From Flavisolibacter sp. (lineage in GTDB: Bacteria; Bacteroidota; Bacteroidia; Chitinophagales; Chitinophagaceae), in the NCBI GenBank assembly GCA_028288675.1, contig JAQBNG010000015.1, forward strand, positions 1 through 33,305: a DNA stretch of 33,305 nucleotides. The letters run 5' to 3'. Positions 800 to 32,702 of this stretch are shown one piece after another. Positions within the stretch are counted from its first letter, which is position 1, and each line of letters opens with the position of its first letter. The translations under genes were made by a program, and so were the position numbers. The notes beneath the pieces were generated by a model. It did no database searches, was not told the DNA's origin, and saw only the letters and a program-made list of their open reading frames with translations.

Positions 800-863
800 A
801 GTTGACAAGTGATGGTTGACAGATGGCAGCAATTTAAGAAAAGTCTGTCATCTGTCAACTCCT
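800..863. repeat. 7-nt-period inverted repeat (element A)
   Basis: The left arm is a run of heptads (agttgac at 800, aagtgat, ggttgac, agatggc ending at 827). The right arm reads gtctgtc (843), atctgtc, aactcct (ending 863). Bases 815-829 pair with 845-859 over 15 positions with one G-U pair, so the transcript can form a terminator-like hairpin. It ends one base from the stop codon of the PorE-like gene (865-867) and lies just upstream of the dprA start. See the findings for the wider family. Confidence 0.7.
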
Positions 864-864
864 A

Positions 865-2778
865 TCATTTGGCTGTAATCTTCAACTCCGTCCTCCTGTT
901 TTGTGCCCGGCCTTCTTCAGTTTTATTATCTGCTACAGGCTTTGATGCGCCAAAACCTTTTGCTACAAACCGGTCACCTTTAATGCCATTGACCACCAAA
1001 TAATTTGTTACGCTTATAGCACGTGCCGTGGATAGTTTTTGGTTATCAGCAGCAGTACCCACATTGTCTGTATGACCTTCAATTTGAATTTTTACCGTGG
1101 GATTATCTTTCAGCAATTGCACCACTCTGTCCAACTCTATGGTGGACTCAGGCTTTACTTCATACTTTTTTGTATCAAAGAAAATATTGCGCAGAACAAT
1201 GGATGCATCAACTTCTATGGGCTGTAGAGGAATATCTTTTTGATAGGTAGAATCAGGCGCTTTTGTTTTTAATGAATAATTACCGGAGTAAAACAAATAG
1301 CCTTTTCTTGCTACGTTAAATACGTAATCTTTTCCAACAGGAAGGGTAAGTAAATAATTTCCGGTTTCATCGGTTTGCACTTTTGAAACTGTTTGTTTTG
1401 TAGCCAGGTCAATCAGTTCAACGGATGATGGCAGGCCAGCGGTTGTTTTTTTGTCAAACACTTTTCCTTTCACCCAAATGGTGCGGGCAGGGCGGGCATC
1501 TTCCCGCATTTCGAAACTATAAATATCAAGACCGCCTTTACTGTCGCCGCGGTCACTTGCATAGTAAGCTGTCTTTGCATCAGCACCAATAAACAGGGTG
1601 CCTTCGTTGGCAATAGTGTTGATGGGATAGCCCAAATTTTCTGGTTTGCCCCATTTACCGTCAGCACTTTTTCTTGTGATGAATAAATCATCGCCGCCAT
1701 AGCCTTGCAAACTATTTGAATTAAAGTATAGCGTTTGGTTATCAGCGTGAATAAAAGGAGAGTATTCATCGCCTGTCGTATTAATGCCGGGACCTAAGTT
1801 TTCGGGCTTTCCCCATTTGCCGCTGGGTAATAAATGCGACACGTACAAGTCACTGCCACCAAGACCGCCGAAGCGCCGGCTGGAGAAATACAAATCCCGT
1901 TTATCGGGTGATAAGCAAGGTTGTGATTCCCATTGGTCAGTATTGATATTGCTGCCTAAGTTAAATGCCGGGGACCAGCCGTCAGGGGTTTTGTAAGAGA
2001 TATAAATATCGCAACTGCCCGCGCCATCGGGCCGATTGCAGCCGGTAAATACCAACCATTCGCCATCACTTGAAATATTTTGTGCGCCTTCGTTTTGTTG
2101 TGTATTGATGTTGCCCGGCAAGCGAACGGATTTAGCCCAGGCTGTACCGGTTTTTTCACTGGCGAAAAAATCTTCGTTCATTCCATTCAGCCGCCTTGTA
2201 TAAACTAAAAGCTTACCATCAACCGGCATTGTTGGAAAGTATTCCGATTCTGAAGTGTTCACGGCATCGCCCATATTTTGCGGGGCAAAGAGATAATTGC
2301 CAGTATGTGTTTTTGCATAATTAATAGCAAATTGAAAACTGCGTTGCCGGTACTCCGCTGCTTTTTTTGTAGTGGGATGGAGGTCCGGTTTAGCTAATAA
2401 TGAATTAATAGTTTGCAATGCTTTTTCAAAATTGCCTTTGCCAGCTAAATTGATAGCATAGGGAAGAAGTGATTCGGCCGTATAAGCACTATCCATGCTG
2501 ATAGCTTTCTCATAAAAAGAAACGCTTTGTGTATAGTCTTTCAGTTCGCCATACACACCGGCAAGTGATAGGTATGCGTCAATATATCGTTCATCTCTTC
2601 TGATAGCTTCGTTAAGTGACGCAACAGCCTCTTTGTATTTGGCGGCTTCTGCCAATTCCATTGCACGGTCGTAGAAAGTGATGGCTTTTTTATCAATTTT
2701 TTCAGGATCGTATTGGGCTGTGGCAGAAAAAGTAGAATACAAAATTAAAAACGTGAAATACAGCATGCGGCTCTTCAT
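865..2778 (-). CDS. PorE-like TPR / PD40-propeller / OmpA-family protein
   Basis: 637 residues with a signal peptide (residues 1-22, cleaved after SATAQ). Domains in order: TPR-like helices at about 28-155 (FYDRAMELAEAAKYKEAV and two more units); a WD40/PD40-type beta-propeller at about 175-425, with repeated INT...E.....P pieces and YFSSRRFGGLGGSDLYVS; a carboxypeptidase-regulatory-like beta-sandwich at about 435-515 (VKGKVFDKKTTAGLP); and an OmpA C-terminal peptidoglycan-binding domain at about 525-637. The OmpA domain has EGHTDNVGT, LSTARA and the terminal EEGRAQNRRTEL. This is the domain order of PorE of the Porphyromonas type IX secretion system, but similar proteins are common in Bacteroidota, so the T9SS link is inference. 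It probably sits in the periplasm bound to peptidoglycan. A near-match to the -7 box (TATCTTCA, minus strand) lies at 2783-2790. Confidence 0.85.
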   Translation of the reverse strand: MKSRMLYFTFLILYSTFSATAQYDPEKIDKKAITFYDRAMELAEAAKYKEAVASLNEAIRRDERYIDAYLSLAGVYGELKDYTQSVSFYEKAISMDSAYTAESLLPYAINLAGKGNFEKALQTINSLLAKPDLHPTTKKAAEYRQRSFQFAINYAKTHTGNYLFAPQNMGDAVNTSESEYFPTMPVDGKLLVYTRRLNGMNEDFFASEKTGTAWAKSVRLPGNINTQQNEGAQNISSDGEWLVFTGCNRPDGAGSCDIYISYKTPDGWSPAFNLGSNINTDQWESQPCLSPDKRDLYFSSRRFGGLGGSDLYVSHLLPSGKWGKPENLGPGINTTGDEYSPFIHADNQTLYFNSNSLQGYGGDDLFITRKSADGKWGKPENLGYPINTIANEGTLFIGADAKTAYYASDRGDSKGGLDIYSFEMREDARPARTIWVKGKVFDKKTTAGLPSSVELIDLATKQTVSKVQTDETGNYLLTLPVGKDYVFNVARKGYLFYSGNYSLKTKAPDSTYQKDIPLQPIEVDASIVLRNIFFDTKKYEVKPESTIELDRVVQLLKDNPTVKIQIEGHTDNVGTAADNQKLSTARAISVTNYLVVNGIKGDRFVAKGFGASKPVADNKTEEGRAQNRRTELKITAK

Positions 2779-2862
2779 GAATTGAAGATAACAACTCTAA
2801 AAAAAGCTGGGTGATTCTACGCTTGTTTTAACGTTCTTTCAACTGTAAAATTGAACCAACAA

Positions 2863-3534
2863 TCAAGGAACATTAATATACTTATGGGTTTGCAACGATA
2901 GCTGCCATTGCGGATGAGCTTTAATGTAATCCACGATCAAGGGAGTAATGCTGTCTGCTTTCGACCATTCGGGTTGTAGAAACAGCTTGCAGTTAGATGA
3001 AACTTGCGAAGCCCATTTTTCACCCCAGGCAAAATCTGACGTATTAAAAACCACAATTTTTAATTCATCCGCCTTTGGCAAAATTTCCGGTAACGGTGCC
3101 TTAAATTTTTTGGGTGATAAGGTGATCCAATCCAGTTCGCCGGAAAGAGGAGAAGAGCCTGACGTTTCAATATGTGTTCGCAGTCCGGCCTCGTGCAATA
3201 CGTTTGTAAGGGGATATAAATCGTGCATTAGGGGTTCGCCACCGGTGATAACAACAATTTTTGCAGGCGTTGCCTTAATTGTGCTAACAATGTCTTCAAT
3301 CTTCCAAAAAGGATGTTTACCTGCATCCCAGCTATCTTTTACATCGCACCAAACGCAGCCTACATCGCAGCCGCCCAATCGTACAAAATAAGCAGCACGG
3401 CCTGTATGTACGCCTTCGCCCTGAAGGGTATAAAAATGCTCCATCAACGGCAAAGCAGTTGTCTTGCTTAATTCAATAGACAGTTCTATATTACTTATTG
3501 TCTCAACCATTTTCAAATTTGCTAATTGTCGCAT
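2863..3534 (-). CDS. queE: 7-carboxy-7-deazaguanine synthase (radical SAM)
   Basis: QueE converts 6-carboxytetrahydropterin to 7-carboxy-7-deazaguanine, a step toward preQ0 and queuosine. The 223-residue protein has the QueE substrate signature FYTLQGEGVHTG, then the radical SAM cluster motif CDVGCVWC (C56, C60, C63, the CX3CX2C spacing), TGGEP at 97-101, THIETSGS, and LSPKKF. The length fits the family. The listed start (MRQLANLK) overlaps the folD stop by one base (TAATG), which implies translational coupling. M9 (MVETISNIE) is an alternative start, because the first eight residues come from an A/T-rich stretch with a weak 7-nt look. No other queuosine genes are in the window. Confidence 0.94.
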   Translation of the reverse strand: MRQLANLKMVETISNIELSIELSKTTALPLMEHFYTLQGEGVHTGRAAYFVRLGGCDVGCVWCDVKDSWDAGKHPFWKIEDIVSTIKATPAKIVVITGGEPLMHDLYPLTNVLHEAGLRTHIETSGSSPLSGELDWITLSPKKFKAPLPEILPKADELKIVVFNTSDFAWGEKWASQVSSNCKLFLQPEWSKADSITPLIVDYIKAHPQWQLSLQTHKYINVP

Positions 3535-4415
3535 TAGTCATAGTGCTTCATAGCACAAGCCTTAAATGTATTTTTCATCAAAGCTGCAATCGTCATAGGC
3601 CCTACGCCACCAGGTACCGGTGTTATGTAAGAAGTTTTATGTGCTACCGATGCATAATCCACATCGCCGCTAATGCGGTACCCGCTTTTTTTTGTAGCAT
3701 CGGTAACCCTGGTAATGCCCACATCAATCACCACGGCGCCTTCTTTCACCATATCTTCTTTTATAAATCCGGGACGCCCTAAAGCCGCAACAATAATATC
3801 TGCCGTTTGGCAAATCTCTTTCAGATTTTTTGTGCCTGAATGGCAAATGGTAACGGTACAATTTCCCGGGTTGGTAGCGGCGCTTAATAAAATACTCATG
3901 GGCCGGCCTACAATATTGCTCCGGCCAATAACTACGGCATGTTTGCTGGCGGTATCAATTTTATAATGCTCCAGCATTAGCATAATACCATACGGTGTAG
4001 CGGGAACAAAAGTTGGCTGGCCTTGCACCATACGGCCTACATTAACAGGGTGAAAGCCATCAACATCTTTACCTGCATCTATCGTATTTATAATTTCTTC
4101 GGAAGAAATATGCGCCGGTAACGGCAATTGAACCAAGATGCCATCTACATCAGGATCATTATTTAATTCCCGTACCAGTTCCAGCAGTTTTAATTCTGAA
4201 ATATCCTCTTCCATTCGTATCAGGGTTGATTTAAACCCTACCTCGTTACAAGCTTTTACTTTAGAAGCAACGTAGGTTTCGCTGGCGCCATTGGTACCTA
4301 CTAAAATAGCTGCCAAATGCGGAACCGGGGCACCTCTTGACATTAATTGGGCAACTTCTATCTTCAATAAATCTATGATCGCCTGCGCAGTTGCCTTCCC
4401 GTTCAAAATTTGCAT
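3534..4415 (-). CDS. folD: bifunctional methylenetetrahydrofolate dehydrogenase / methenyltetrahydrofolate cyclohydrolase
   Basis: FolD interconverts 5,10-methylene-, 5,10-methenyl- and 10-formyl-tetrahydrofolate in the cytosol, supplying one-carbon units for purines and formyl-Met. The 293 residues match the family length. Visible signatures are [18 protein letters not shown] (with the catalytic Y and K), [21 protein letters not shown], the NADP-binding [12 protein letters not shown], and the C-terminal [10 protein letters not shown]. It is the first gene of a folD-queE pair. A perfect -7 box sits only four bases upstream of the start codon (4420-4427), so the mRNA is probably leaderless or nearly so. 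Confidence 0.97.
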
Positions 4416-4419
4416 CCGG

Positions 4420-4427
4420 CAAAGATA
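4420..4427 (-). promoter_or_regulatory. folD -7 promoter box TATCTTTG
   Basis: On the minus strand the sequence is TATCTTTG, an exact match to the Bacteroidota -7 consensus TAnnTTTG, four bases from the folD ATG. No TTG-type -33 element lies at the usual distance; that position is occupied by the heptad array at 4433-4460. Confidence 0.6.
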
Positions 4428-4432
4428 AAAGG

Positions 4433-4464
4433 GTTTGAGGTTTGGAGTTTGGAGTTTGAGGTTC
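4433..4464. repeat. 7-nt-period tandem repeat (element B)
   Basis: Four perfect-period heptads: gtttgag, gtttgga, gtttgga, gtttgag, then gttc. Unlike the other elements I see no inverted arm nearby. It starts five bases upstream of the folD -7 box. Confidence 0.8.
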
Positions 4465-4588
4465 TTTAACGCTGTCTTTGCCCTACCACATTCAGCCGTT
4501 CCCTCAATCTACCCGCATCACACCTTATTAACCTGGCAACTTATCAACGTATCAACTTTCTTCTTTATCTTAACACAAACTAACAACT

Positions 4589-7568: not shown

Positions 7569-10500
7569 ATGAGAAAAATTACGCTACTGCTATCAATGCT
7601 GTTGCTTAGTGTGCTGGCATTTGCCCAAACTGCACGTACTGGCACAGTTCGTGACGAGAAGGGAAATCCTATTCCTTTTGCAACCATTACTGAAGTTGGA
7701 AAAAACAATGTGGTGCAGGCCGATGCAAACGGGGCTTTTAGTATCAGAGCTCTTGAAGGCGCACAATTACGAATCACGGCCAGTGGCCATCAGCCTCAAA
7801 ATGTGACTGTTGCAGGTAATACAGTTGCAGCTACTTTGGCTGTTGTCAATGAGCAGTTATCAGAAGTAATAGTTACTACAGCATTGGGTGTGCAGAGACA
7901 AGCTAAGGAGCTAGGTTATTCTACGGCAAGAGTACGCTCCGCAGAGTTGAATCAGGCAGCACCTATTAATCTCCAAAATGGTTTAACAGGCAAAGTATCT
8001 GGTTTAAATATTAACACTGCTAATAATGGTGTTTTTGCCGATACACGCATTACTATCAGGGGTATTCGCTCCCTTACAGGTAATAACCAGCCAATGTTGG
8101 TAATTGATGGTGTGCCGGCAGCCTTAGGTTTTTTAAACTCTATTAATCCTAATGATGTTGCCGATGTAACAGTTTTAAAGTCTTCTTCCGCAACGGTTAT
8201 ATACGGCCCTGATGGTGTTAATGGCGCCATTGTAGTTACAACTAAAAGAGGTGTCAGAGGTCGTCCATTGGTGACAGTAAGCCACACGGCTCAAATGGAA
8301 AAACTTGCTTATTTCCCAAAAATTCAGAAGCGGTTTGGTTCGGGATATTCCCCTGATGCTGGAGGTTTTGGTACGTATGAGCCAATTGAGCAACAAAGCT
8401 GGGGCCCGGAATTTAATGGAGAAATTGTTCAGATTGGACAAGATGGCCCAAATGGTGAAAAAATAATGGTTCCCTATTCATTCAATGAAAATGGACGTAC
8501 CGGTTTTTTTAATACCGGTATTACCAATCAAACAGATTTATCTTACTCAAATGACGGGTTTTATATAAGTGCGCAAAATGTTTCAATCAAAGGAATTATG
8601 CCTGATGATCAAAACAACCGCAGATCATTTACTTTACGTTCCGAAAGAGAATATGGTCGGTTCAAAGCAGGTTTTAATCTTCGCTATACCAATTCTGAAT
8701 ACGACGTTACCACGCAGGGCAGGATTATATATTATGGTGTGACAGGCGCTCCTGGTCAAATTGACCTTAGTCAGTTTGAAGATGTGAATTCACATTTTGG
8801 TTCTCCTAATGGGTATTTTACTCCATACCTTGATAACAATGTAAAGACACCCTATTTCGGTGTTAAAAACTGGAGAGAAAAAGGAAATGGTGATGATATC
8901 TTTGGTAATGTTGAGTTAGGATTTAAAGCAACTTCGTGGTTAGATTTTGTATATCGTGCTGGTATTACTTATAGCAATGATGATGCAAGAAGCACACGAG
9001 GTGCATGGCAGTATTCTGCTTATCACAAGACTTTAAGAGATGCAGGAAGTACTAATTTAACATCTGCTGTAACACAAAGCTCTAATGAAGGCCAACGAAT
9101 TACATCTGAGGTGTTCGCCAACTTTAAAAAATCTTTTAAAAGATTTGGTTTAAATGGTACGATAGGCCAGTCGTATAGGCAAACTACTTCACGCTTTCTT
9201 AGCGTAGGAAGCAACAACCTAGGCAATTCTACTTTGTTTAGTGTTGCCGTTAGAAAGGGCGAACCCACGGTAGGTGTTGCTAATAGTAAGGTAAGATTAG
9301 GCCGCTATTTTGGAAGAGTAGGGTTCAGCTTTGATGACTGGGCTTTTGTAGAAGCTACCGGCAGCTATGACAGGGACAGTCGCCTGGTGAACCCATTAAA
9401 CAATACAAATGAGTCCTCGTTTTTTTACCCCGGAGTAAATGCCTCATTTGTTTTAAGCCAGGCTATTCCACAGTTGAAGAATAGCGCCACCATCAGTTTT
9501 TTAAAACTTAGAGGAGCTATCTCTAAAACAGGAAATGTAAACTTAGGCGCTTATGCTTTTGAAAGTGTATTTAGTAGTTCAACATTCTTCCCTTATGGTG
9601 ACATCTTAGGTTTTCAGGCAACTGCTAATACACCTGCTGCCACCTATAAGCCAGAATTTGTTTTGAATAGAGAAGTAGGATTGGAAGTTGGCTTTTTAAA
9701 GAATCGCATTAATGTAGAAGCAACTTATTATAACCAGGATAATACTGACCAGATTATCAATGTGCAGCTATCTAACACAACCGGTTATACTTCTGCCTTA
9801 CAAAACGCTGCCTCTTTTGTAAATAAAGGCCTGGAATTAGACCTTCGTTTAACGCCGCTGGTGGATATTGGGGACGTCAAAATTAATTTTAAAGCCAACT
9901 ACGCTTATCAAACAAATGAAGTCACCTCCTTAGTTGATGGTGTAAATGAATTGGGAATTGGAAATTCTAACTTCATTATTGTAGGAGAGTCAGCTTATAA
10001 ATTCAAATTAACAGATTACATTAGGGACGCTCAGGGCAGAGTAATAGTTGACCGCACAACCGGTATGCCTGATCAAAATCCTAATCTTACAGTTTTTGGA
10101 AATACACTACCAACACACATCCTTGGATTAAATCTTGATGTAGATTGGAAAGGCTTATCGTTAAGTGCTGTGGGTGAATATCGTGGAGGAAACCAGATGT
10201 TAGCTGAAGATTTAGGCAACTTTTTGGACGATAATGGTATCTCAGAAAGGAGTGCACAAAATGGCAGGCGTGCTTTTGTTTTTCCTAATTCAGTATATGA
10301 CGACGGCAGTGGCAAATATGTAGAAAACAAAGACGTTTATACACAAACTTATGGTCGCTTATTTTGGAATAGTGCTTTGAATACAAATGTCCAAACTAAT
10401 TACTTGGCTAGCGCAGCATTCTGGAAGTTGCGTGAGGTTTCACTTACTTATACAATTCCAACGAAAATTTTTGGTTCTGGCTTCGAGAAAATTGTGAAGG

Positions 10501-10670: not shown

Positions 10671-10689
10671 TTTTTAAACAACTCATTGT

Positions 10690-13680: not shown

Positions 13681-13744
13681 GAGTTTAGAATGATGAATTA
13701 TAAAAAAAATGAACATCTCATTTATAATTCATCATTCTTCATTT
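13681..13744. repeat. 7-nt-period inverted repeat between convergent genes (element D)
   Basis: The left arm is gagttta, gaatgat, gaattat; the right arm is ataattc, atcattc, ttcattt (13724-13744). Bases 13687-13704 and 13721-13738 form an 18-bp perfect inverted repeat. It fills the space between the DUF3467 stop (13671) and the radC stop (13744-13746), so it probably acts as a bidirectional terminator or 3' stabiliser. Confidence 0.75.
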
Positions 13745-15697: not shown

Positions 15698-15743
15698 AAG
15701 TGGTAAGTAGCTAGAAGCAAGTAGTATAGGCTGCTTGCCACTT
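15698..15743. repeat. 7-nt-period inverted repeat after prs (element E)
   Basis: The left arm is aagtggt, aagtagc, tagaagc, aagtagt (15698-15725); the right arm is gctgctt, gccactt (15730-15743). Bases 15698-15711 pair with 15730-15743 over 14 positions with two G-U pairs. It begins one base after the prs stop codon and may terminate or attenuate transcription into rplY. It has the same words as the elements at 32558-32585 and 32668-32702. Confidence 0.75.
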
Positions 15744-15775: not shown

Positions 15776-16414
15776 ATGAAGACAATTACAATCGAAGGAC
15801 AACTGAGGACCGAACATGGCAAAGGAGCCACCCGCCTGCTTCGCTCTCAGGAACTTGTGCCTGGTGTAATTTACGGGGGTGCACAGGAAATTAATTTTTC
15901 TGCTCCGGCCAAGGCTTTTAAAGCTTTGGTTTACACACCAAGCTTTCAGTTAGCAGATGTTACCGTTGATGGTACAACTTACCGTTGCATTTTGAAAGAT
16001 CTGCAATTTGGTAAAGTAAGCGACGAGCTTATTCACATTGATTTACTGGAATTGGTTGAAGACAAAAAGGTAATAGCCCAAATTCCATTGAAGTTCACAG
16101 GCGTGGCCAGTGGTGTTAAAGCCGGCGGGCGTCTGGTTCCAAAAATGAAAACATTGAAAGTAAAAACCTATCCAAAATATTTGCGTGAGCAAATTGAGGT
16201 AGCTGTTGATGCTTTGGAAATTGGCGAAAACCTTCGGGTACAGGACGTAAAGGATGAGAATTATGAGCTGATGAACTCACCACGCATTCCCATTGTTTCT
16301 GTAGTTACTACACGTGCCCTGCGCCAGGAAGAAGCTTCCGGTGGTGGTGCCGCTCCTGCTAAGGGTGCTGCTGCTAAAGCCGCTCCTGCAAAGGCTGCTC
16401 CTGCAAAAAAATAA
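15776..16414 (+). CDS. rplY: 50S ribosomal protein bL25 (Ctc/TL5 type)
   Basis: bL25 binds 5S rRNA on the large subunit. The 212-residue long form has the 5S-binding N-terminal domain at about 1-92 (IEGQLRTEHGKGATRLLRSQ, VPGVIYGG, YRCILKDLQFGKVSDELIHI) and the C-terminal Ctc/TL5 beta domain at about 95-185 (IPLKFTGVASGVKAGGRL, YPKYLREQIEVAVDALEIGE). The last 25 residues are an Ala/Lys/Pro tail (APAKGAAAKAAPAKAAPAKK), low-complexity and positively charged, as often seen in Bacteroidota bL25. A terminator follows. Confidence 0.97.
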   Translation: MKTITIEGQLRTEHGKGATRLLRSQELVPGVIYGGAQEINFSAPAKAFKALVYTPSFQLADVTVDGTTYRCILKDLQFGKVSDELIHIDLLELVEDKKVIAQIPLKFTGVASGVKAGGRLVPKMKTLKVKTYPKYLREQIEVAVDALEIGENLRVQDVKDENYELMNSPRIPIVSVVTTRALRQEEASGGGAAPAKGAAAKAAPAKAAPAKK

Positions 16415-18237: not shown

Positions 18238-20298
18238 ATGATAGATCGCAACTTGCTCCTGCATGCGTACCGGCTGATGTACAGTGCAAAATTGATGGCT
18301 GAAACATATGAAGCTAACCGCCAGGTAACAAAATATGTACACTCTACTTCCCGTGGGCACGAAGCCATTCAATTAGCAACCGCCTTTAATTTACTGCCAC
18401 AGGATTGGATAAGCCCTTACTATCGCGATGAAAGCATGCTGCTCGGTATGGGATGGACGCCCTATCAATTAATGCTGCAATTATTAACTAAAGCAGACGA
18501 CCCTTTTACCGGTGGAAGGAGCTATTATTCTCACCCAAATTCACGGGCCGGAGATAAGCCTAAGATTATTCATCAAAGCAGTGCTACCGGTATGCAGGTA
18601 ATACCTACAACCGGAGTGGCGCAGGGTATTCAATACAAAGAACGAACAGGCAATAAGCAATTGGCAATTGGCAATGAAGAGCAGCCCGTTGTTGTTTGTT
18701 CACTTGGTGATGCATCAATGACAGAAGGTGAAGTAAGCGAGGCCTTGCAATTTGCTGTATTGAAACAATTACCCATAATTTATTTAGTGCAGGATAATGA
18801 ATGGGGTATAAGTGTTTCGGCAGAGGAAGGACGTGCAATGGATGCTTACGAATACGCAGAAGGCTTTAAAGGCTTAAATAAAACCAGGGTTGACGGTACT
18901 GATTTTTTTGAAAGCTATCTAGCGATGCAGAACGTTGTTGCAGATGTACGTACACATCGCCGCCCGTGGCTGGTTCATGCAAAATGCTGCCTGCTTAATC
19001 ATCATACAAGCGGTGTACGCAAAGAATTTTATCGTACAGAAGACGACCTGGCTAAACATGCCTGCAGCGATCCATATATAAAATTCAGAGCGGTTATTGT
19101 TGATGATTTTGGAGACGACTTTTTAAAACAAATAGAAGAAGAGGTACGAACACAAATAAAGGAAAGTTTTGATAGAGCCGTTGCTGCACCTGAGCCTGAT
19201 ATATCAAAGGTTATGGACCATGTATTTGCTCCAACACCCGTGATAGAAGAGAAGGGAGAAAGGGCGCCTGCCGGCAACGAAAAAGTACCAATGGTAGATG
19301 CCGCTTTATTTGCAATTCGTGAGTTAATGGAAGAGAATGAAGAATGCCTTTTGTACGGGCAGGATGTAGGCAAACGATTAGGCGGGGTGTTTCGGGAAGC
19401 GGCTACATTAGGCGAGCAGTTTGGTGACCACCGGGTATTTAATACTGCTATTCAGGAAGCTTATATAATTGGTTCTACTGTTGGCATGAGCGCTGTGGGT
19501 TTAAGGCCAATTGTGGAAGTTCAGTTTGCCGATTATATATACCCCGGCTTCAATCAACTGGTAACAGAAATTTCCAAATCATGCTATCTCTCTTGCGGCA
19601 AGTTTCCGGTATCAACTATCATTCGTGTGCCTATTGGTGCATATGGTGGTGGTGGCCCTTATCATAGCGGAAGCATTGAATCAACGTTGTTAACCATTAA
19701 GGGAATTAAGATTGCTTACCCCAGTAATGCGGCTGATATGAAGGGGTTGATGAAAGCCGCCTACTATGATCCAAATCCCGTGGTAATGCTGGAACATAAA
19801 GGTTTGTACTGGAGTAAAGTACCGGGTACGGAAGAAGCAAAAATGGTTGAACCTTCTGCTGATTACCTACTACCGTTTGGTAAAGGAGCAGTTGCATTGC
19901 ATGCTTCAGATGATGCAATTTCTACTGGTGAAACAGTTTGTGTTATTACATACGGAATGGGTGTGTACTGGGCGAAAGCCGCCGCTAAAAACTTCGATTC
20001 CCAAATTGAAATTATTGACCTGCGCACACTGGTTCCTTTAGATGAAGAACTCATTTTTTCAACTGTAAAAAAGCATGGTAAATGTTTGGTGCTTACCGAA
20101 GAACAACAAAATAATTCTTTTGCAGAAGCATTGGCTGGTCGCATTTCAAAAGCCTGCTTTCAATGGCTGGATGCACCGGTGGAAGTGTTAGGGGCATTGA
20201 ACTTACCTGCGGTTCCATTGAACACTGGGTTGGAAGCGGCGATGTTGCCTAATGCGTCGAAGTTAGAAGAGCGGTTAAGGCAGTTACTTTCATACTAA
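18238..20298 (+). CDS. 2-oxoacid dehydrogenase E1 component, fused alpha and beta subunits
   Basis: 686 residues from the ATG at 18238. The thiamine-diphosphate E1 decarboxylates a 2-oxoacid and passes the acyl group to lipoyl-E2. E1-alpha occupies about 1-340: YVHSTSRGHEAIQLA, SPYYRDESMLLGMGWTPYQL, SHPNSRAG, and the ThDP motif GDASMTEGEVSEAL (from 157) ending at QDNEWGIS. E1-beta follows from about 360: LLYGQDVGKRLGGVFREA, FNTAIQEAYIIGSTVGMSA, VEVQFADYIYPGFNQL, RVPIGAYGGGGPYHSGS and IEIIDLRTLVPLDEE. The fused layout is common in Bacteroidota and usually called branched-chain 2-oxoacid dehydrogenase, but the substrate is not certain. Residues about 136-147 are encoded by a heptad DNA repeat and look like an added loop just before the ThDP-binding segment. 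Confidence 0.93.
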   Translation: MIDRNLLLHAYRLMYSAKLMAETYEANRQVTKYVHSTSRGHEAIQLATAFNLLPQDWISPYYRDESMLLGMGWTPYQLMLQLLTKADDPFTGGRSYYSHPNSRAGDKPKIIHQSSATGMQVIPTTGVAQGIQYKERTGNKQLAIGNEEQPVVVCSLGDASMTEGEVSEALQFAVLKQLPIIYLVQDNEWGISVSAEEGRAMDAYEYAEGFKGLNKTRVDGTDFFESYLAMQNVVADVRTHRRPWLVHAKCCLLNHHTSGVRKEFYRTEDDLAKHACSDPYIKFRAVIVDDFGDDFLKQIEEEVRTQIKESFDRAVAAPEPDISKVMDHVFAPTPVIEEKGERAPAGNEKVPMVDAALFAIRELMEENEECLLYGQDVGKRLGGVFREAATLGEQFGDHRVFNTAIQEAYIIGSTVGMSAVGLRPIVEVQFADYIYPGFNQLVTEISKSCYLSCGKFPVSTIIRVPIGAYGGGGPYHSGSIESTLLTIKGIKIAYPSNAADMKGLMKAAYYDPNPVVMLEHKGLYWSKVPGTEEAKMVEPSADYLLPFGKGAVALHASDDAISTGETVCVITYGMGVYWAKAAAKNFDSQIEIIDLRTLVPLDEELIFSTVKKHGKCLVLTEEQQNNSFAEALAGRISKACFQWLDAPVEVLGALNLPAVPLNTGLEAAMLPNASKLEERLRQLLSY
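18645..18679 (+). repeat. 7-nt-period repeat inside the E1 coding region (element F)
   Basis: Five heptads in a row: aacaggc, aataagc, aattggc, aattggc, aatgaag. They stay in frame and encode a short polar segment, GNKQLAIGNE. The first 16 bases are identical to 23811-23826 in the tamL signal region, which is antisense to its gene. Confidence 0.75.
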
Positions 20299-20492: not shown

Positions 20493-21341
20493 TCACTTTA
20501 GGCCGTAGAAAGATTGTTGGTCATTCCACAATCCTTTTTCAATCCACTCTTCAATAGATTTATACTTCTCAATGTTAGGCCATCTATCAACGTCTTGTTC
20601 TCTTTTTGTATAGGTCAGATGAACCATATAGCATATTCCTGTCTCCTGATCTTGAAACAAAGTATCATCAGAAGCAGAAGACTTCCAAATAGCTTTTAAG
20701 TTATTTAAATGTTGATATAAGAAGTGTAATCGTCTATTTCCAATCTCCCTTTTAAGTTCGTTAATAAAATGGCTGTCAATGTTCTCAATAGAGAACCATG
20801 GTCTAAATCTTAAGTATTGTGTTGGAATAGGAGTTGTTAGCCAAACATTATCACTTGTCTGGAAGAAGACCCATCCATTCTTGACTAAATATTCTGTTTC
20901 TATTTCAATGATAATCGGTTTGCCATGTCTTTTTCCTACGCTTATTGCAGTCTCTTCTGTTTCAGATAAGTGAACGAACTGTCTATTCATGGATAGCAAT
21001 CCTTGTTCAGAAATTTTTAAAACACTTCTCACAGATGTACCATGATATAGTATTTCAGGAGGATGTTTTATTTTATCTTCTAATGTTACAGCAACTGAAT
21101 GCCCATGTGTAGCTCTTATTCTATTGCTACTTGCATCAACTTCCCAGCGCACCTTATCAAAACTGTTGTTTAGTAGAAGTAAATCTTGCAATTCTATTTC
21201 GAGGTTTCTACAATGTAATGCTTGAAGTAGTTGTTCTATGGAAATCCATCCAAACTCATCCATCGTGAATCCAGCATCTTCAGGATTGTGTCTTAGCCAG
21301 TAACTAATTAATTTACTTGTTTGTTTTGAAGGCGCTTTCAT
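20493..21341 (-). CDS. kptA: RNA 2'-phosphotransferase (Tpt1/KptA) with an extra C-terminal domain
   Basis: Tpt1/KptA moves an internal RNA 2'-phosphate to NAD+, giving ADP-ribose 1'',2''-cyclic phosphate and nicotinamide. Residues 1 to about 182 are a full KptA: SYWLRHNPEDAG with catalytic Arg17 and His18, RIRATHGHS with Arg76, ILYHGTS, and LLSMNRQFVHLS with Arg120. So the Arg-His-Arg-Arg set appears intact. Bacterial KptA is usually about 180 residues; this one has 282. The extra 100 residues (from FSIENIDSHFINELKREIGN) include HFLYQHLNNLKAIWKSSASD, DTLFQDQETGICYMVHLTY and WPNIEKYKSIEEWIEKGLW. This resembles, from memory, small stand-alone proteins of unknown function carrying DDxLF and VHLT motifs. 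An AAGGA lies six bases before the ATG, a Shine-Dalgarno uncommon in Bacteroidota. Short inverted repeats flank the gene; transfer is plausible. Confidence 0.88.
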   Translation of the reverse strand: MKAPSKQTSKLISYWLRHNPEDAGFTMDEFGWISIEQLLQALHCRNLEIELQDLLLLNNSFDKVRWEVDASSNRIRATHGHSVAVTLEDKIKHPPEILYHGTSVRSVLKISEQGLLSMNRQFVHLSETEETAISVGKRHGKPIIIEIETEYLVKNGWVFFQTSDNVWLTTPIPTQYLRFRPWFSIENIDSHFINELKREIGNRRLHFLYQHLNNLKAIWKSSASDDTLFQDQETGICYMVHLTYTKREQDVDRWPNIEKYKSIEEWIEKGLWNDQQSFYGLK

Positions 21342-21522: not shown

Positions 21523-21556
21523 AAAATTATTAGCAGCAATGGGCAATCCGAAATTT

Positions 21557-23929
21557 TTAAAAAGGATAACCTATCGCCAAATTCAAAATCAAATTCTCTC
21601 TCCTCCATGCCTGGCTGCCAAAATTAATTTGATTAATTAGCAGCCGCTCACCTGCAGGCCTTGTAGGATCGCGGATAGGAAAGGCCAGATCCAATCGAAG
21701 GACAAATAACGTAATATCTATGCGAACGCCGACACCGGCTCCCATTGCTAACTCATTTAAAAAGCTTTTACTAATAGCAGCACCGGGTTTATCGGGATCG
21801 CTGTTTTTTAGCCAGATGTTACCGGCATCAACAAATACGGCACCGTATAGCGGGCCTGAAATGCGTGGCCGGAACTCTGTGTTTAGCTCCAGTTTCAGGT
21901 CGCCGGTTTGGTCGGGTATATATCTGTTTTCAATAAGCGGCGCTTTATAAGTACCCGGCCCAACGGTACGGCTTCTGAAGGCCCTGATACTGTTATTGCC
22001 GCCGATAAAAAATTGCTTAATGTAGGGTATCTGGCGGCTGTTGCCATACGGTAAGCCATATCCAACTATTATCCGGTTAGCCCAACTGGAGCCTGTCCCG
22101 ATACGACGATAGTACCGTCCGTCCAACTCAAGTTTTATGTATTGCGAGAAAGGCAGATTAAGGATCCGCTTGCCATTAACGCCGCTGCCTTTTACAAGCA
22201 ACCCTGCAAGGTTGCCCGAAATATCTGCAAGCCCATTAAAATAAAACGAGTTAAGCTTGGGTGCTCCAGCTGCCTGATCATTAAAATTATATTGATAAGT
22301 TGAGCCTAAAATAAATTGCGTATCTACAATATGCTGTAGAGTAGGACTTGCATTGATTTGATCTTTGAAAGTTGTAGTAATATTCAGTGGCTGCACATAC
22401 GTTACTGCCAACGGATAAAACTCATGCGAGGTTCTTGCGCTCTGCTTCCATAAATAGCCAAGGCCGCCACGGAAAGAGTTCAATGTATAAAGCGTTCTTC
22501 GGTTCAGGGCTTCGTAACCTAATTGAATATTGGTGCGGGGCACATAAGCGCTTTTTGTTTTGATGCTGAAGAAAGGCGTTACAAAACGAGGAATGGCAAA
22601 ATTAATTTCGCCACCAACGCGTAAGGTACTGGTGCCCGAAAAGGAGCCGCTAAACTGCGCTTCCGTACCACCGTAAATTCTGAAATCCATTTGTTCAGCA
22701 CCACGGAAGGTGTTACGATGTTTAAAGCCGATGCTTAATTCAGTTCCATTCAGATTGTTGCTTTTTGTATTAGCCCCAAACTCGGCCCGCAGTGCTTTTT
22801 CGGGATGTGGAGTGAGGTAATAAAATACATTAAGCTTTGGTGAATCTACTTTTGCAATTTCAAACCGGTTTTTCACAAACTTGAAAACATTGAGGTTGAT
22901 CAGCCGGTTTAAGGTGCGGTTATGGTCGGTACGGTTATAAACTTCGTTGGGCGAAAACTGCATCGCTGTAGTAAAAAGTTTGGGCCTGTATTTTCCCGCA
23001 GGGTCAATAACACGGTAGCCATTTGTTACAACTCCTGTATTGCGTATGGTATCTGCCCGGGCGGAGTTTAAGCTGTAATTACTGTAGATGGTTACATCAT
23101 TAATGTAATAAACCTCTTTTGCCTGGTCAGGCGCATCAGGCTTTATCACTACACGTATATCTACCAAATTGCTACCGGCAGTACTATCTACCTGCATTAA
23201 AATATACTCGGGACTAAAGTAGTAGAAGCCTCTTTCTTTTAATAAGCCATCAATACGTAAGCGTTCGCCTTTTATAAGATCAAGATCGTAAGGAGCACCT
23301 TTTTTCAACAAGGTTTCTTTGCTGATATCGGCGATAGCTGTGGTGAGCAGTGAGCTGTCATTTATAAATACAACAGACTGTATTTTATACTGTGCACCTG
23401 CATTTGCGGTATAAGTAACACTTGCTTTCTTTTTCTTCCAGGTGCTATCGGCAGTAACCTGTGCACCAAAAAACCCTTTGTTCTGTAAGTAGTTTTGAAG
23501 CAACGTGGTATTAGCACCAAGGTTTACAGTGCTTGCTAACACAGGCGGTTGACCTAACTTTCGTTGCAAGCCCGCTTTTAGGCCTTTTTGTTTTGTGGTA
23601 TAAAACATATTCCATAGCAACAGCTTAAAAGGTATCCCCAAAAACTTACCATTGGGCCGTGGCCTTGTTTGCCCTTGCAGGTCAGCAGCATACACTTTCT
23701 TTTGCTGCCCCGTAATGTTTTCCGCATTCAACTTTACTTTGGCACCGGTGTATAAAGCATCATTGTCTGGAATGTGTTTAGTGGTGCTACAAGCTGCAAG
23801 CACAACCAACAACAGGCAATAAGCAACAAGCAATTTGAGATTGCCGATTACGTACTGCTCAGTGCCTCTTGCTGGTTGCGGGTTGCTTATTGCATATTGC
23901 TTATTGACTGTAGTCTCTTGCTTTCTCAT
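21557..23929 (-). CDS. tamL: TamL: lipoprotein-type BamA/TamA (Omp85) outer-membrane protein
   Basis: 790 residues. Omp85 proteins fold or insert other outer-membrane proteins. A lipobox (VVLAACS, Cys47) makes this the lipidated TamA variant known as TamL in Bacteroidota. POTRA-like domains span about 115-420 (NKGFFGAQVTADSTWKKKK, LKERGFYYFSPEYILMQVDS, FKFVKNRFEIAKVD). The 16-strand barrel follows, with FFIGGNNSIRAFRSRTVGPG, ELNTEFRPRISGPLYGAVFV, GVRIDITLFVLRLDLAFPIR and the terminal Phe of IGYPF. The start is fixed by an ATGA overlap with the tamB stop. The n-region before the hydrophobic core is unusually long (about 32 residues); that region and the core come largely from a heptad DNA repeat. 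It works with the adjacent TamB. Confidence 0.92.
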   Translation of the reverse strand: MRKQETTVNKQYAISNPQPARGTEQYVIGNLKLLVAYCLLLVVLAACSTTKHIPDNDALYTGAKVKLNAENITGQQKKVYAADLQGQTRPRPNGKFLGIPFKLLLWNMFYTTKQKGLKAGLQRKLGQPPVLASTVNLGANTTLLQNYLQNKGFFGAQVTADSTWKKKKASVTYTANAGAQYKIQSVVFINDSSLLTTAIADISKETLLKKGAPYDLDLIKGERLRIDGLLKERGFYYFSPEYILMQVDSTAGSNLVDIRVVIKPDAPDQAKEVYYINDVTIYSNYSLNSARADTIRNTGVVTNGYRVIDPAGKYRPKLFTTAMQFSPNEVYNRTDHNRTLNRLINLNVFKFVKNRFEIAKVDSPKLNVFYYLTPHPEKALRAEFGANTKSNNLNGTELSIGFKHRNTFRGAEQMDFRIYGGTEAQFSGSFSGTSTLRVGGEINFAIPRFVTPFFSIKTKSAYVPRTNIQLGYEALNRRTLYTLNSFRGGLGYLWKQSARTSHEFYPLAVTYVQPLNITTTFKDQINASPTLQHIVDTQFILGSTYQYNFNDQAAGAPKLNSFYFNGLADISGNLAGLLVKGSGVNGKRILNLPFSQYIKLELDGRYYRRIGTGSSWANRIIVGYGLPYGNSRQIPYIKQFFIGGNNSIRAFRSRTVGPGTYKAPLIENRYIPDQTGDLKLELNTEFRPRISGPLYGAVFVDAGNIWLKNSDPDKPGAAISKSFLNELAMGAGVGVRIDITLFVLRLDLAFPIRDPTRPAGERLLINQINFGSQAWRRENLILNLAIGYPF
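23811..23905. repeat. 7-nt-period inverted repeat encoding the TamL signal region (element G)
   Basis: The plus strand has three AANNNGC heptads (aacaggc, aataagc, aacaagc; 23811-23831). After a 25-base gap come seven consecutive GC-initial heptads (gctcagt, gcctctt, gctggtt, gcgggtt, gcttatt, gcatatt, gcttatt; 23857-23905). The arms are inverse copies (CAATAAGCAAC at 23817-23827 against GTTGCTTATTG at 23883-23893). All of it lies within the tamL coding region, residues 9 to 40. Confidence 0.8.
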
Positions 23930-29022: not shown

Positions 29023-29278
29023 GGTGATAGTTAAGGGGAATGGCTTTGTTATAGTGGCAAATAATATTCCTTAAACAGACTTAACGAAAATGCGGATGAA
29101 TGATGGTTTTTTACAGATGTACGGCTAGTATGACAAGTTGCTTGTAGAACAATTTCTACATGAAAACGGGTTTATCAAAACAACCCTGCTCGTATTTTAA
29201 ATTGTTCATAATTCCTTAAAATGAAAAAGTGCTTCAGATAGGCAATCCCTGCACCTTTGCGCAAAATTAGAAAAACAC
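29023..29278. other. divergent intergenic region between tamB and the Oar-like gene
   Basis: 256 bases that must hold two divergent promoters. For tamB (minus) the string TATTATTTG has the right words with one extra base. For the plus gene, CACCTTTG shortly before the start is one base off TAnnTTTG. Neither is strong, and I see no repeat or RNA gene. Confidence 0.3.
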
Positions 29279-32200
29279 ATGAGATCAAAGGATGCTTTAC
29301 TGCTTTTAGCTTTTCTATTGGTTTCCTTCGCAAATGTATTCTCACAGGAAACAACCTCCGAACTACAAGGTGTCGTAAGTGGTGAGAATAACCAGGGTTT
29401 GCAGGGAGCCACTATTGTAGCCATACATCTGCCAACCGGCACCAGGTACACAACGTCAACCCGTACCGATGGACGTTACAATTTGCCCAACGTTCGTGTA
29501 GGTGGGCCTTACGAGGTAACGACAACATTTATTGGTTTTCAGTCTTCTACACAAAGAGACATCAACTTAGTACTAGGCACAGCTTACAAAGCCGACTTTA
29601 AATTAGCACCGTCAGCCGGTAGTTTAACGGAGGTAGTTGTTTCTTCTACCCGTAGCGATAAAGTTTTCAGCCGCAGCCGCACTGGTTCTTCTGAAGTAAT
29701 AAGCCGTACGCAAATTGACCGTCTGCCTACTATTAACCGAAGCATTGCAGACTTTACACGCCTTACACCAACTGCCAATGGTAGTTCATTTGCCGGCCGC
29801 AGCGGATCGTATAACAATCTTACCGTAAATGGAGCTGCGTTCAATAATACCTTCGGTTTATCGGGTCCATTAGGCGGGCAAACTTCATCACAACCAATTT
29901 CTATTGATGCGCTGGATCAAATACAGGTTAACATTGCTCCTTACGATGTAACCCTTGGTTCCTTTACTGGTGCAGGCATTAACTCAGTTACAAGAAGTGG
30001 TACTAACAGCTTTCGGGGCAGTGTTTATTATTACTGGAAAAATCCTTACCTGACCGGAACAAAAGTTGGAACCACTACATTGCCAACCCAGCCATTTAAC
30101 TTTAATAACAGGGGTGCCAACGTTGGCGGGTACATTGTAAAAAACAAAGTATTCTTTTTTGTAAGCGGAGAGCAGGAGCGAAGAAGCGACCCCGCTACCA
30201 CTTTTACAGCCAGCCGCGCCGGTTCACCAGCGGTGCCGGGTTCTATATCACAGGCTAACGGTGATACACTGGAAACACTACGCAAATTTCTTGTATCTAA
30301 ATACAACTACGACCCAGGTGCTTTTGAAAACTATAACTACGAAACAAGAAGCGATAAAATAACGGCCCGCATTGATGTAAACATTAATAGCAAGAATACC
30401 TTCAACATCAATTATTATTATTTGAAGTCTTCCCGAAATGTGCCGCCAAACGCCAGCGGTTCTCCTGCCGGCGGACGCTCAGCAAGCAACACAGGTATGC
30501 CGTTCTTTAGTTCATCTTATGTCATTAACAACAATTTTAATATTGTAATTGCGGAGTTGAACACCCGTTTTTCTAATACGCTTTCAAACAAGTTGCAAGT
30601 AGGTTATAACCGCCTTCGCGATTTTCGCAGTTCACCCGGTGGCATTTTTCCATTAGTTGATATTGAAAATGGAGCAGGAAGCACTTTTACTTCTTTTGGC
30701 TATGAGCCTTTTACTGCCTTCAATACATTAAACACCGATACCTGGCAGTTGAATGATATTGTTACTTTAAATAAGGGTAGTCATACATTGACCTTTGGTA
30801 CGCAAAATACCTACAACAAATTCCGTAATGGTTTTGCGCCTAATTATTATGGTACTTACCGTTTTAGAAGTCTTACCGATTTTTATAACTCTGCTAATAA
30901 TGGCGTAGCCAATTCAACGCAGTATGATTTTCGTTATTCTGCCCGTAAGGGTGGCGAGTTTCCATTTGCCGATATTACCGGTTTGCAATTAGGCTTTTTT
31001 GCCCAGGACAGGTGGAGCGCTACGGACAACTTAGTGCTTACTGCCGGTTTGCGTGCCGACCTCCCGATTTTTAATGACGATAATTATACCGCTAACCCTA
31101 AAGTGGATTCATTGCCTTTTCGCAATGGCATTCGTGTTAATACAGGCAATGGCCCAAAGACTTCTGTTTTATGGAGCCCACGTATTGGTTTTAACTGGGA
31201 TGTAAAGGGAGATAAAACAACGCAGTTGCGTGGTGGTGTAGGCATTTTTGCCGGCGCTCCGCCATTCGTATATATCTCTAACCAGGCGAGTAATAATGGC
31301 GTTGATTTTGGCTCTTATCAAATTCAACCTGGTGTAGGCGGCGTTCCTGCTAACGATCCCCGTTTTATTTTTAACGCGGATGTAGATAGAAACCGTCCTG
31401 CAAGTGCGGCACCAAACGCTTCTTATAACATAGCCTTAACCGATGAGGATTTCAAATTTCCGCAGGTGTTCAGAACCAACCTTGCTTTGGATAAAAAAAT
31501 CTTCTGGGACATCACGGCTACTTTAGAAGGAATTTACTCGAAAGATATTAATGCAGTCACTCATCAGAACATCGGCCTTCCCCTTTCAGGAACTCCGTTA
31601 GCCGGATCTGATAAAAGAATACGTTATACATCACCACGGATATATAATGTATCAGTAGCGCAGCAAACAATTTCTAATCCGAATATTACCGATGTTATTT
31701 TAATGACGAATACATCGAAAGGATACAGCTATAATATTACAGGCCAGCTACAGCGTAACATTAATAACCTGTACACGATGGTAGCTTACACTTATGGTAA
31801 AAGTAAATCGGTAAATGATGGCGGTTCAATTGCACAATCCATCTGGAGAGACCGCCAGGTAAGTGGGGATCCAAATGAGACAGCGCTTAGCTATTCAAAC
31901 TTTAACCAGCCGCACCGTGTTGTAGCAGCCGCTTTCTATCGTAAGGAGTATAAAAAATACTTCGCTACTTCCATAGGGCTAACCTTTGAAGCAGCCAATG
32001 GTGGTACTGCGAGTTATGTGTATAGTGGTGATGTAAATGGCGACGGACAAAACACTAACGATTTAATTTATGTTCCGCTAAACCAAAGTGATATTGTACT
32101 TGAAGGTGTAAATGCGGCAGATACACGTACACCAGCAGTTATTTGGGCACAGTTGGATGCTTACATAAAACAAGATCCTTACCTCAGCAAAAGAAGAGGA

Positions 32201-32560
32201 ATGTATGCTGAAAGAAATGGTTTGCTTCTTCCGTTTTATAAGCGGTTGGATTTAAATCTTACGCAGGATTTTATCGTGAAAATCGGTAAGCGTACCAACA
32301 CGATCCGCTTAACAGCGGATGTATTCAATTTTGGAAATTTGCTTAATAAAAACTGGGGCACATTCCGTTCAGCATCAAGGCAGGCTTTGCTGAATTATAA
32401 GTCGCTTGTAGCTACTGGAACAAACGCAGGCAAGCCTGTTTACAGTTTCCCTTATTTGGATGCTGCTAATCAAATTCCATTGGTAAATTCTTTCCAAAAC
32501 AGCACGGCTCAAGGCTCACGCTTCCAGGTGCAGTTTGGGCTACGGTATTTGTTTCAATAG
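29279..32560 (+). CDS. Oar-like TonB-dependent receptor
   Basis: 1093 residues. Signal peptide MRSKDALLLLAFLLVSFANV up to FSQ; a carboxypeptidase-regulatory-like domain at about 26-110 (LQGVVSGENNQGLQGATIVA, TDGRYNLPNVRVGGPYEVTT); a TonB-box-like LTEVVVSS; a plug with LPTINRSIADFTRLTPTANG and NNLTVNGAAFNNTFGLSG; then a large barrel (FNFNNRGANVGGYIVKNKVF, GLQLGFFAQDRWSATDNLVL, SPRIGFNWDV, DVNGDGQNTNDLIYVP) ending LRYLFQ. It matches Oar/Cna-B-type TonB receptors without a SusD partner. Some Oar proteins export proteases or take up peptides. The substrate here is unknown. The stop codon is the first TAG of a heptad repeat. Confidence 0.93.
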   Translation: MRSKDALLLLAFLLVSFANVFSQETTSELQGVVSGENNQGLQGATIVAIHLPTGTRYTTSTRTDGRYNLPNVRVGGPYEVTTTFIGFQSSTQRDINLVLGTAYKADFKLAPSAGSLTEVVVSSTRSDKVFSRSRTGSSEVISRTQIDRLPTINRSIADFTRLTPTANGSSFAGRSGSYNNLTVNGAAFNNTFGLSGPLGGQTSSQPISIDALDQIQVNIAPYDVTLGSFTGAGINSVTRSGTNSFRGSVYYYWKNPYLTGTKVGTTTLPTQPFNFNNRGANVGGYIVKNKVFFFVSGEQERRSDPATTFTASRAGSPAVPGSISQANGDTLETLRKFLVSKYNYDPGAFENYNYETRSDKITARIDVNINSKNTFNINYYYLKSSRNVPPNASGSPAGGRSASNTGMPFFSSSYVINNNFNIVIAELNTRFSNTLSNKLQVGYNRLRDFRSSPGGIFPLVDIENGAGSTFTSFGYEPFTAFNTLNTDTWQLNDIVTLNKGSHTLTFGTQNTYNKFRNGFAPNYYGTYRFRSLTDFYNSANNGVANSTQYDFRYSARKGGEFPFADITGLQLGFFAQDRWSATDNLVLTAGLRADLPIFNDDNYTANPKVDSLPFRNGIRVNTGNGPKTSVLWSPRIGFNWDVKGDKTTQLRGGVGIFAGAPPFVYISNQASNNGVDFGSYQIQPGVGGVPANDPRFIFNADVDRNRPASAAPNASYNIALTDEDFKFPQVFRTNLALDKKIFWDITATLEGIYSKDINAVTHQNIGLPLSGTPLAGSDKRIRYTSPRIYNVSVAQQTISNPNITDVILMTNTSKGYSYNITGQLQRNINNLYTMVAYTYGKSKSVNDGGSIAQSIWRDRQVSGDPNETALSYSNFNQPHRVVAAAFYRKEYKKYFATSIGLTFEAANGGTASYVYSGDVNGDGQNTNDLIYVPLNQSDIVLEGVNAADTRTPAVIWAQLDAYIKQDPYLSKRRGMYAERNGLLLPFYKRLDLNLTQDFIVKIGKRTNTIRLTADVFNFGNLLNKNWGTFRSASRQALLNYKSLVATGTNAGKPVYSFPYLDAANQIPLVNSFQNSTAQGSRFQVQFGLRYLFQ

Positions 32561-32585
32561 TAGCAAGTAGCTAGTGGCAAGTAGC
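32558..32585 (+). repeat. 7-nt-period repeat at the end of the Oar-like gene (element H1)
   Basis: Heptads tagtagc, aagtagc, tagtggc, aagtagc. The stop codon TAG at 32558-32560 is the first three bases of the array. It is an inverse relative of 32668-32702 and shares words with element E. Confidence 0.8.
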
Positions 32586-32612
32586 TACTCAATACAAGAT
32601 TTATAATAAAAC

Positions 32613-32642
32613 AAAACCTCCTGAAAATTCAGGAGGTTTTTT
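32613..32642. terminator. bidirectional terminator between convergent genes
   Basis: Stem AAAACCTCCTG (32613-32623) with CAGGAGGTTTT (32630-32640), a 6-base loop and a T run after it (an A run before it serves the opposite strand). It serves both the Oar-like gene and fumC. Confidence 0.92.
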
Positions 32643-32667
32643 GCTGTAAGAATGTTTGAATCTACAG

Positions 32668-32702
32668 GCTACTCGCCACTTGCTACTTGCCACTCGCTAT
32701 CT
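32668..32702 (-). repeat. 7-nt-period repeat overlapping the fumC 3' end (element H2)
   Basis: Five heptads on the plus strand: gctactc, gccactt, gctactt, gccactc, gctatct. The fumC stop codon (32683-32685) and its last residues IASGK are inside the array. It mirrors element H1 across the terminator. Confidence 0.8.

Follow-up and report, generated by a model that had tools for sequence, protein, structure and literature searches.

What are the arrays of short words, repeated every seven bases, that are scattered along contig JAQBNG010000015.1 of Flavisolibacter sp. (assembly GCA_028288675.1; the whole stretch of 33,305 nucleotides is called the window here)? A first-pass annotation had noted eight such loci and proposed 3' elements like repetitive extragenic palindromes (REPs), mRNA stabilisers, sites for a heptad-reading protein or products of repeated slippage and template switching as possible explanations. 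The arrays combine a strict spacing with fixed and free columns, inward-facing pairs and words shared within a genome, and they do not depend in any consistent way on how the neighbouring genes are oriented. Taken together, the results favour DNA words with orientation and dialect over RNA hairpins and over REPs carried by Y1 transposases. Our tentative reading, to which we give a probability of roughly 0.36, is that these are oriented DNA-level arrays of a seven-base recognition word that may be kept by a putative genome-specific factor.

Period seven in the window and beyond

The window is contig C159 of a genome of 4.74 Mb in 254 contigs (G000; other G codes denote relatives). Gene calls came from our own simple codon-score script and not from a standard caller, and arrays were scanned by a standard criterion of 21 positions with at least 16 self-matches at a given lag, low complexity removed. 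At all eight annotated coordinates, lag 7 gave the most self-matches among lags 5–9. Four loci are inverted pairs of heptad words, listed without strand: AATNNGC words at 23811–23905, between the tamB stop and the BamA-like gene as cut at 23800, with arms at 23809–23834 and 23889–23914 and 56 of 88 self-matches at lag 7 versus 14–24 of 86–90 at the other lags of 5–9; AGTTGAC/GGTTGAC at 800–863, which takes up the whole space separating the dprA start from the stop of an ompA-family gene (23/57, the top of lags 5–9); GAATGAT/GAATTAT at 13681–13744, in the convergent gap between a short plus-strand gene and radC, its arms of 18 bases each (13687–13704 and 13721–13738) free of mismatches; and AAGTGGT/AAGTAGC at 15698–15743 between prs and rplY (21/39). 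Two arrays on the plus strand are unpaired, namely GTTTGAG/GTTTGGA at 4433–4460, G-rich on that strand and located where folD and a plus-strand gene diverge (17/21), and GCAATNN units at 18645–18679, within a variable loop of an E1-type dehydrogenase gene (18/21). The remaining two loci, 32558–32585 (plus strand, AAGTAGC words, 16/21) and 32668–32702 (minus strand, 19/28), are the two arms of one element; the left arm starts at the stop codon of a TonB-dependent receptor-like gene, the right arm overlaps the fumC stop codon, and the loop between them encloses an intrinsic terminator of the ordinary kind, with runs of A and of T, read from the sequence at 32616–32642 (no strand assigned).

The scan returned seven lag-7 hits in the window and 0–1 at any of the remaining lags between 4 and 13, while 60 dinucleotide shuffles of the window gave a lag-7 mean of 0.03 and a maximum of 1. 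It recovered six of the eight loci, with 800–863 and 15698–15743 below the threshold, and added a short in-gene run at 9947. Because 12 of the first 20 G000 stretches had been picked for containing the AAGTAGC word, a set not chosen for content (48 stretches, 716 kb of G000) was kept free of those 12 and of the window; it held 31 lag-7 hits and 0–11 at the other lags from 4 to 13, lag 6 giving 11, ten of them coding. The AAGTAGC-picked stretches are included in the analyses of inverted partners, wobble, flank homology, G-rich polarity and column clustering below. In 446 kb of G003, lag 7 gave 37 hits, lag 8 gave 16 and each remaining lag from 4 to 13 at most 3, and 432 kb of G015 yielded 83 intergenic lag-7 hits, with at most 19 at any other lag to 13. 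A second genus set, made up of 92 loci from species other than that of G000 and including 100 kb of G014, showed 46 intergenic hits at lag 7 versus 0–8 elsewhere to lag 13; in named Bacteroidota, 80 loci surrounding a single gene, of which two belong to the genus, showed 22 intergenic hits at lag 7, 22 at lag 8 and 1–12 at other lags to 13. From these lag counts, period 7 dominates in the genus, where period-8 arrays form a weaker second class, and ties with period 8 more widely.

The lag-7 autocorrelation check suggested in the first-pass annotation held for discrete arrays, which are in excess, and for the raised means of G003 (0.2762 at lag 7 versus 0.2694, 0.2673 and 0.2675 at lags 5, 6 and 8) and G015 (0.2991 versus 0.2708, 0.2764 and 0.2753), but not for the mean of intergenic DNA in G000 (0.2764, with 0.2754, 0.2776 and 0.2725 at the same three lags). 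The G000 signal sits in rare, local, discrete arrays and not in bulk intergenic DNA. The claim of a dispersed period-7 class, often inverted and with differing words, was borne out.

Fixed and free positions and genome-specific words

Sites matching ARTNNGC in the 716 kb of G000 are spaced by 7 (36 cases), 14 (24) and 21 bases (15), with 0–10 cases at every other spacing from 4 to 45, and GATGA sites in G003 behave alike (16, 14 and 8 at spacings of 7, 14 and 21; 0–8 at others). ARTNNGC fits 10 of the 31 arrays of its own genome, 0.7 being expected from letter-shuffled words. Searching 18 whole genomes for three successive AATNNGC units with at most one mismatch gave 165 sites in G000, 189 in G014, 127 in G006, 109 in G003, 48 in G008 and 46 in G007, and 0–11 in each of the remaining 12; the reversed control gave none in G000, 0–1 in 16 of the 18 genomes, 6 in G007 and 22 in G009. 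Triple AGTNNGC was commonest in G014 (138) and then G000 (51), though its reversed control was well filled in several genomes, perhaps from other heptad words. Among 38 genomes, triple AGTRGCN was found 74 times in G014, 40 in G000, 16 in G006, 15 in G010, 7 in G008 and 8 in one genome of another family, with 0–2 in the rest. Identical consensus words made up 0.018–0.023 of array pairs within genomes versus 0.001–0.004 between genomes, about 5 to 20 times more.

In G003 and G000, words shared in this way come with little or no sharing of their surroundings: no pair of array loci in G003 and four short pairs in G000 had homologous flanks. Copying of longer elements was rejected as the general source, although it is common in G015. 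In that genome, several different heptad and octad words follow one another in a recurring order within large composites between genes, observed at L286 11750–15310, L287 9780–10420 and L279 6440–6960. Long, near-perfect AGTAGGC or AGTAGCC arrays were also seen in G014 (C12:1–126, C4:191563–191688 and C13:87764–87888), one of them at a contig end. With regard to quadruplex-type G-tracts, the main words ARTNNGC, AAGTRGC and GATGACA contain no fixed run of three G, while a minority of arrays, for example in L006 and G015, do hold such runs.

Inverted pairs face inward

A local inverted partner was defined by a score of at least 28 within 600 bases. Of the 63 G000 arrays, 24 had one, as did 23 of 37 in G003 and 21 of 83 in G015, compared with 0, 0 and 2 when flanks were shuffled and 4, 1 and 12 when flanks were taken from another locus. 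The aligned pairs from all genomes except G015 revealed a strong polarity: the 5' arm was G-rich (inward) in 35, C-rich in 3 and even in 2. Heptad pairs of the second genus set were G inward by 18:1, or 14:1 once four seen before are set aside, a few of the new ones being near-repeats, and in other named Bacteroidota all 11 pairs among those listed, nine of them distinct or nearly so, had G inward. Words themselves behaved in the same manner, since neighbouring matches among those listed by the AGTRGCN, AATNNGC and AGTNNGC triple searches, with long one-word runs shortened, numbered 42 inward and 2 outward, one of these two sitting between two inward pairs.

General base composition was rejected as the sole source of this polarity, as the skew of array-free gaps is close to zero downstream of stops (+0.02 to +0.04). 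Before starts, the skew of array-free gaps is −0.15 to −0.20, and composition may contribute to polarity in tandem and divergent gaps; convergent pairs outside G015 were G inward in 8 of 8 cases.

Matching between the arms of a pair was not partner-specific. In a test covering four word classes with small numbers (18 of 40 non-G015 pairs fall outside these classes), the true partner was the best match in 6 of 22 pairs, about 4 being expected by chance, and own-partner versus other-locus arm matches were 0.49/0.50 for AGTRGC, 0.44/0.40 for AATNNGC, 0.39/0.35 for GTTTG and 0.44/0.43 for GATGA. Inverted duplication by foldback copying is disfavoured, as true partners are not better matched than arms of other loci; one nearly perfect inverted pair of about 40 bases at L268 in G003 looks like such a case. 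A telomerase-like extension of both broken ends, entertained as a candidate only, would account for the orientation but would not explain why a terminator stays in place between the arms.

Position relative to genes

Contact with stop codons, emphasized in the first-pass annotation, is seen at the window loci, but genome-wide a purely descriptive comparison puts it only slightly above what arrays placed at random within their own gaps would give. Arrays lay within 15 bases of a stop in shares of 0.29 versus 0.22 for random placement (G000), 0.46 versus 0.40 (G003) and 0.11 versus 0.10 (G015), and within 15 bases of a start in 0.35 versus 0.19, 0.43 versus 0.31 and 0.06 versus 0.05, respectively. 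A special preference for stop codons was discarded because the excess is small and occurs at both gene ends; the window elements touch several stop codons because they take up the whole length of short gaps. Tandem, convergent and divergent gaps held arrays in fractions of 0.029, 0.035 and 0.074 in G000, 0.107, 0.095 and 0.098 in G003, and 0.154, 0.244 and 0.17 in G015, so that no gap class is consistently preferred across the three genomes.

Comparison across relatives

Words in the orthologous gaps of relatives were read by eye. The dprA–ompA gap contains AGTTGAC in G000, GATGACA in G003 and G006 and GATAACT in G014; the prs–rplY gap contains AAGTAGC in G000, AGCTGAT in G003, AGTTTGC in G014 and a period-8 word in G006; and the TonB–fumC gap contains AAGTAGC in G000 and G008 and GATGACA in G003, with a similar terminator hairpin between the arms in all three. 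Several other relatives have no arrays in these three gaps, and the tamB–BamA array is present in G003 and missing from G008, G006, G014 and G010. Some orthologous gaps thus keep arrays while the words change, and copies conserved in place as ordinary terminators, the outcome that the first-pass annotation had set against its own proposal, were not seen in the relatives compared.

The E1-type dehydrogenase gene provides a coding example. Among the 15 of 16 loci within the genus (G000 included) that were readable, the loop that separates conserved blocks measures 51 nucleotides and shows heptads in G000, G008, G006 and G012; in six relatives it measures 54 nucleotides without heptads, and five others have other lengths and no period 7 at such strength. 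The GCA-T columns are nearly fixed in G000, G008 and G006 (3 exceptions in 48 cells), and G006 has G in all four units where G000 and G008 have A. A protein-level reason for the fixed bases is unlikely because a period of seven is out of frame and successive units encode different residues. In Pedobacter, one pair of gaps with flanks of about 88% identity retained an alignable array with changes in its units. Tandem units of roughly 86 bases by eye, each containing GGATGATGG-type heptads, were also observed in Pedobacter ghigonis (L072 15850–16290); the relatives compared have a shorter gap there.

Genomic setting and neighbouring features

The window encodes mostly ordinary chromosomal proteins by Pfam (dprA, folD, radC, prs, rplY, pth, the E1-type dehydrogenase, tamB, a BamA-like protein and fumC), and comparison with named relatives puts the genome within Chitinophagaceae close to Flavisolibacter longurius, with 71% identity in the BamA-like protein. 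A gene for a KptA/Tpt1-type RNA 2'-phosphotransferase at 20493–21341 was unmatched in stretches of nine relatives, some of which do not cover the place, and the gene for ribosomal protein L25 carries a 30-base tandem repeat in two copies within its terminal part (16349–16408).

Weighing the explanations

In our preferred reading, a putative genome-specific factor would read (or write) the word with one protomer per seven bases and keep the arrays in step. The units have fixed and free positions, in G000 mostly those of ARTNNGC and AAGTRGC; two arrays in one gap would face each other, the hairpin being a by-product of the same word on both strands; new units could be supplied through slippage and conversion between arrays; and arrays would settle in otherwise unconstrained DNA, including the variable loop of a coding gene. 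A reader (or writer) is preferred because slippage alone gives neither orientation nor fixed columns. The suggestion of binding sites for a putative heptad-reading protein is in our view the best fit, even though a search confined to Y1 transposases identified no reader.

This absence is one of several points that weigh against such a factor. Of the G003 arrays only 3 of 37 fit ARTNNGC, with 1.0 expected, and of the G015 arrays only 1 of 83, and several word families coexist within one genome. The clustering of array mismatches in columns (z of 3.1, 3.1 and 4.6) speaks for the reading, but it is modest and could in part be explained by duplication of two-unit blocks. Also in its favour, arrays recur in the same gaps above shuffled expectation at three thresholds (p = 0.0008, 0.0082 and 0.012; 17 gaps, 10 genomes and 135 cells, three gaps being excluded as two are present only in G000 and one has little or no length), but gap length is uncontrolled in these p-values. 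Inward orientation holds less strictly in G015 (13:3, and 1:2 in convergent gaps) and was not seen among period-8 pairs of the second genus set (2:2), while 540 array pairs in the G015 sample have flank homology, with many words copied in longer composite families. Finally, some Pedobacter gaps with flanks 86–89% identical hold quite different sequence, and a turnover this rapid looks more like that of unselected repeats.

Functionless satellites born of replication are nearly as likely as a reader, because turnover is fast and no gene context is favoured. Slippage would here favour duplications of seven and then eight bases, conversion or template switching would spread the words, and the arrays would persist in unconstrained DNA. 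The occurrence of arrays in every class of gap as well as in a variable loop of a gene, the existence of period 8 as a second class and the turnover in Pedobacter gaps all fit, as does a polymerase-linked cause of heptamers proposed by Mrazek in 2007, as summarised in PMC4679880. The inward orientation (42:2 among the matches listed) is not predicted, however, nor is the distinction of fixed from free columns that recurs at more than a hundred places in a genome, and words shared without flank homology are not readily explained.

A wider, and in our view unlikely, form of the preferred reading is an oriented, genome-specific code of seven-base words across Bacteroidota, written in many arrays with fixed contact positions and free ones, in which a putative polymerising DNA-binding (or word-writing) factor would drift in specificity between species and drag its arrays along.

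Less probable than functionless satellites are mobile doublets resembling REPINs or bacterial interspersed mosaic elements (BIMEs), moved by a putative enzyme that acts on paired inverted words. Dispersed, mostly intergenic inverted pairs with genome-specific words and high turnover would suit such elements, and so would the longer composite copies in G015. Their arms are however tandem and not palindromic, neither of the window's unpaired arrays folds, copies have no common flank in G003 and almost none in G000, and one gap retains a similar terminator between its arms in three species. A link to a REP-associated transposase was also not supported, since five Y1_Tnp matches at four places in G000 had no array of at least 15 of 21 within flanks of up to about 1.5 kb. 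One Y1 transposase-like gene (L153, G000 C33:6697–7035) has in-frame TGA codons and is probably decayed.

The annotation's inference that the loci fold into hairpins holds for five of the seven stretches that were folded (with 32558 and 32668 taken as one), which reached z values of −3.4 to −9.5 with 0 or 1 of 200 shuffles as good, among them −4.7 for 800–863 on the minus strand, −5.7 for 13681–13744, −4.2 for 15698–15743 and −9.5 for 32556–32702; it does not hold for the lone arrays at 4433 and 18645 (z of +0.2 and +0.4). The fold is real in the sequence but may follow simply from the same word standing on both strands. An RNA role would favour G-U over A-C mismatches in the sense strand, and no such bias was found in 26 tandem pairs (G-U 31, A-C 40; by genome 12/7 in G000, 9/21 in G003, 4/8 in G015 and 6/4 in others) or in four further distinct heptad pairs (6 and 5); a second-set tally of 21 versus 12 includes octads, repeats and pairs already among the 26. 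By eye, the arms of the window elements lack the intrinsic terminator form of a stem followed by a T-run, and Rfam 15 gave no window match above the gathering score. RNA hairpins at 3' ends, acting as terminators or mRNA stabilisers as suggested for the cyanobacterial short tandemly repeated repetitive (STRR) sequences, are thus the least probable of these explanations, for the good folds, the one enclosed terminator and the G-U excess of G000 alone are set against the missing wobble bias, the missing partner-specific matching and the finding that neither stops nor convergent gaps, the latter compared with divergent ones, are consistently enriched. A candidate role of the C-rich arm in loading Rho is opposed by the arrays in divergent gaps.

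Relation to known repeats

Heptamers are reported to be the commonest intergenic tandem repeats, as yet unexplained (PMC6344855). The other papers compared here are used in part, and likenesses and differences refer to what those parts describe. The GGGAATC and GGGANTN heptamers of Xanthomonas are heterogeneous, 89% and 93% intergenic and spread genome-wide, with 70 and 75 pairs in convergent orientation and with prominent arrays at different genes in two species (PMC4692102). Our arrays share with them the tandem, heterogeneous seven-base units with fixed and variable positions, the intergenic location and the convergent pairs, but differ in their words, which are many per genome and in the main ones lack G-tracts, and in having no clear closeness to the upstream gene end in G000, G003 and G015; the word comparison here also spans a genus, unlike the Xanthomonas description (PMC4692102). 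In five Bacteroidetes, TAACTGA direct repeats occur, in some alongside other heptamers (PMC4679880). They are likewise heptameric and intergenic, but constitute a single word located mostly just upstream of start codons, with one inverted case in 170 sets (PMC4679880). The view that no described element in Bacteroidota shows this combination was consequently too strong, given the convergent heptamers of Xanthomonas (PMC4692102) and the heptamers of five Bacteroidetes (PMC4679880). Among the matches listed, which included papers on REPs and on template switching, titles and abstract openings contained no inward-facing heptad words in Bacteroidota, in a search for which subscription journals were mostly outside the scope.

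Cyanobacterial STRR sequences are intergenic seven-base repeats able to form hairpins, with unexplained function (PMC2670836); the likeness lies in these features, whereas the phylum and the words differ, and STRR were compared by description, without orientation or turnover (PMC2670836). REPs and BIMEs resemble our arrays in being extragenic, often doublets, and members of lineage-specific families, but REPs are palindromes with GTAG or CGTC tags and the arms here are tandem (PMC3733652). The closest kin are the heterogeneous heptamers of Xanthomonas and cyanobacteria.

The inward orientation, the fixed and free columns and the genome-specific words make the search for a putative reader direct, as its specificity would be expected to match ARTNNGC in one species and GATGACA in another.

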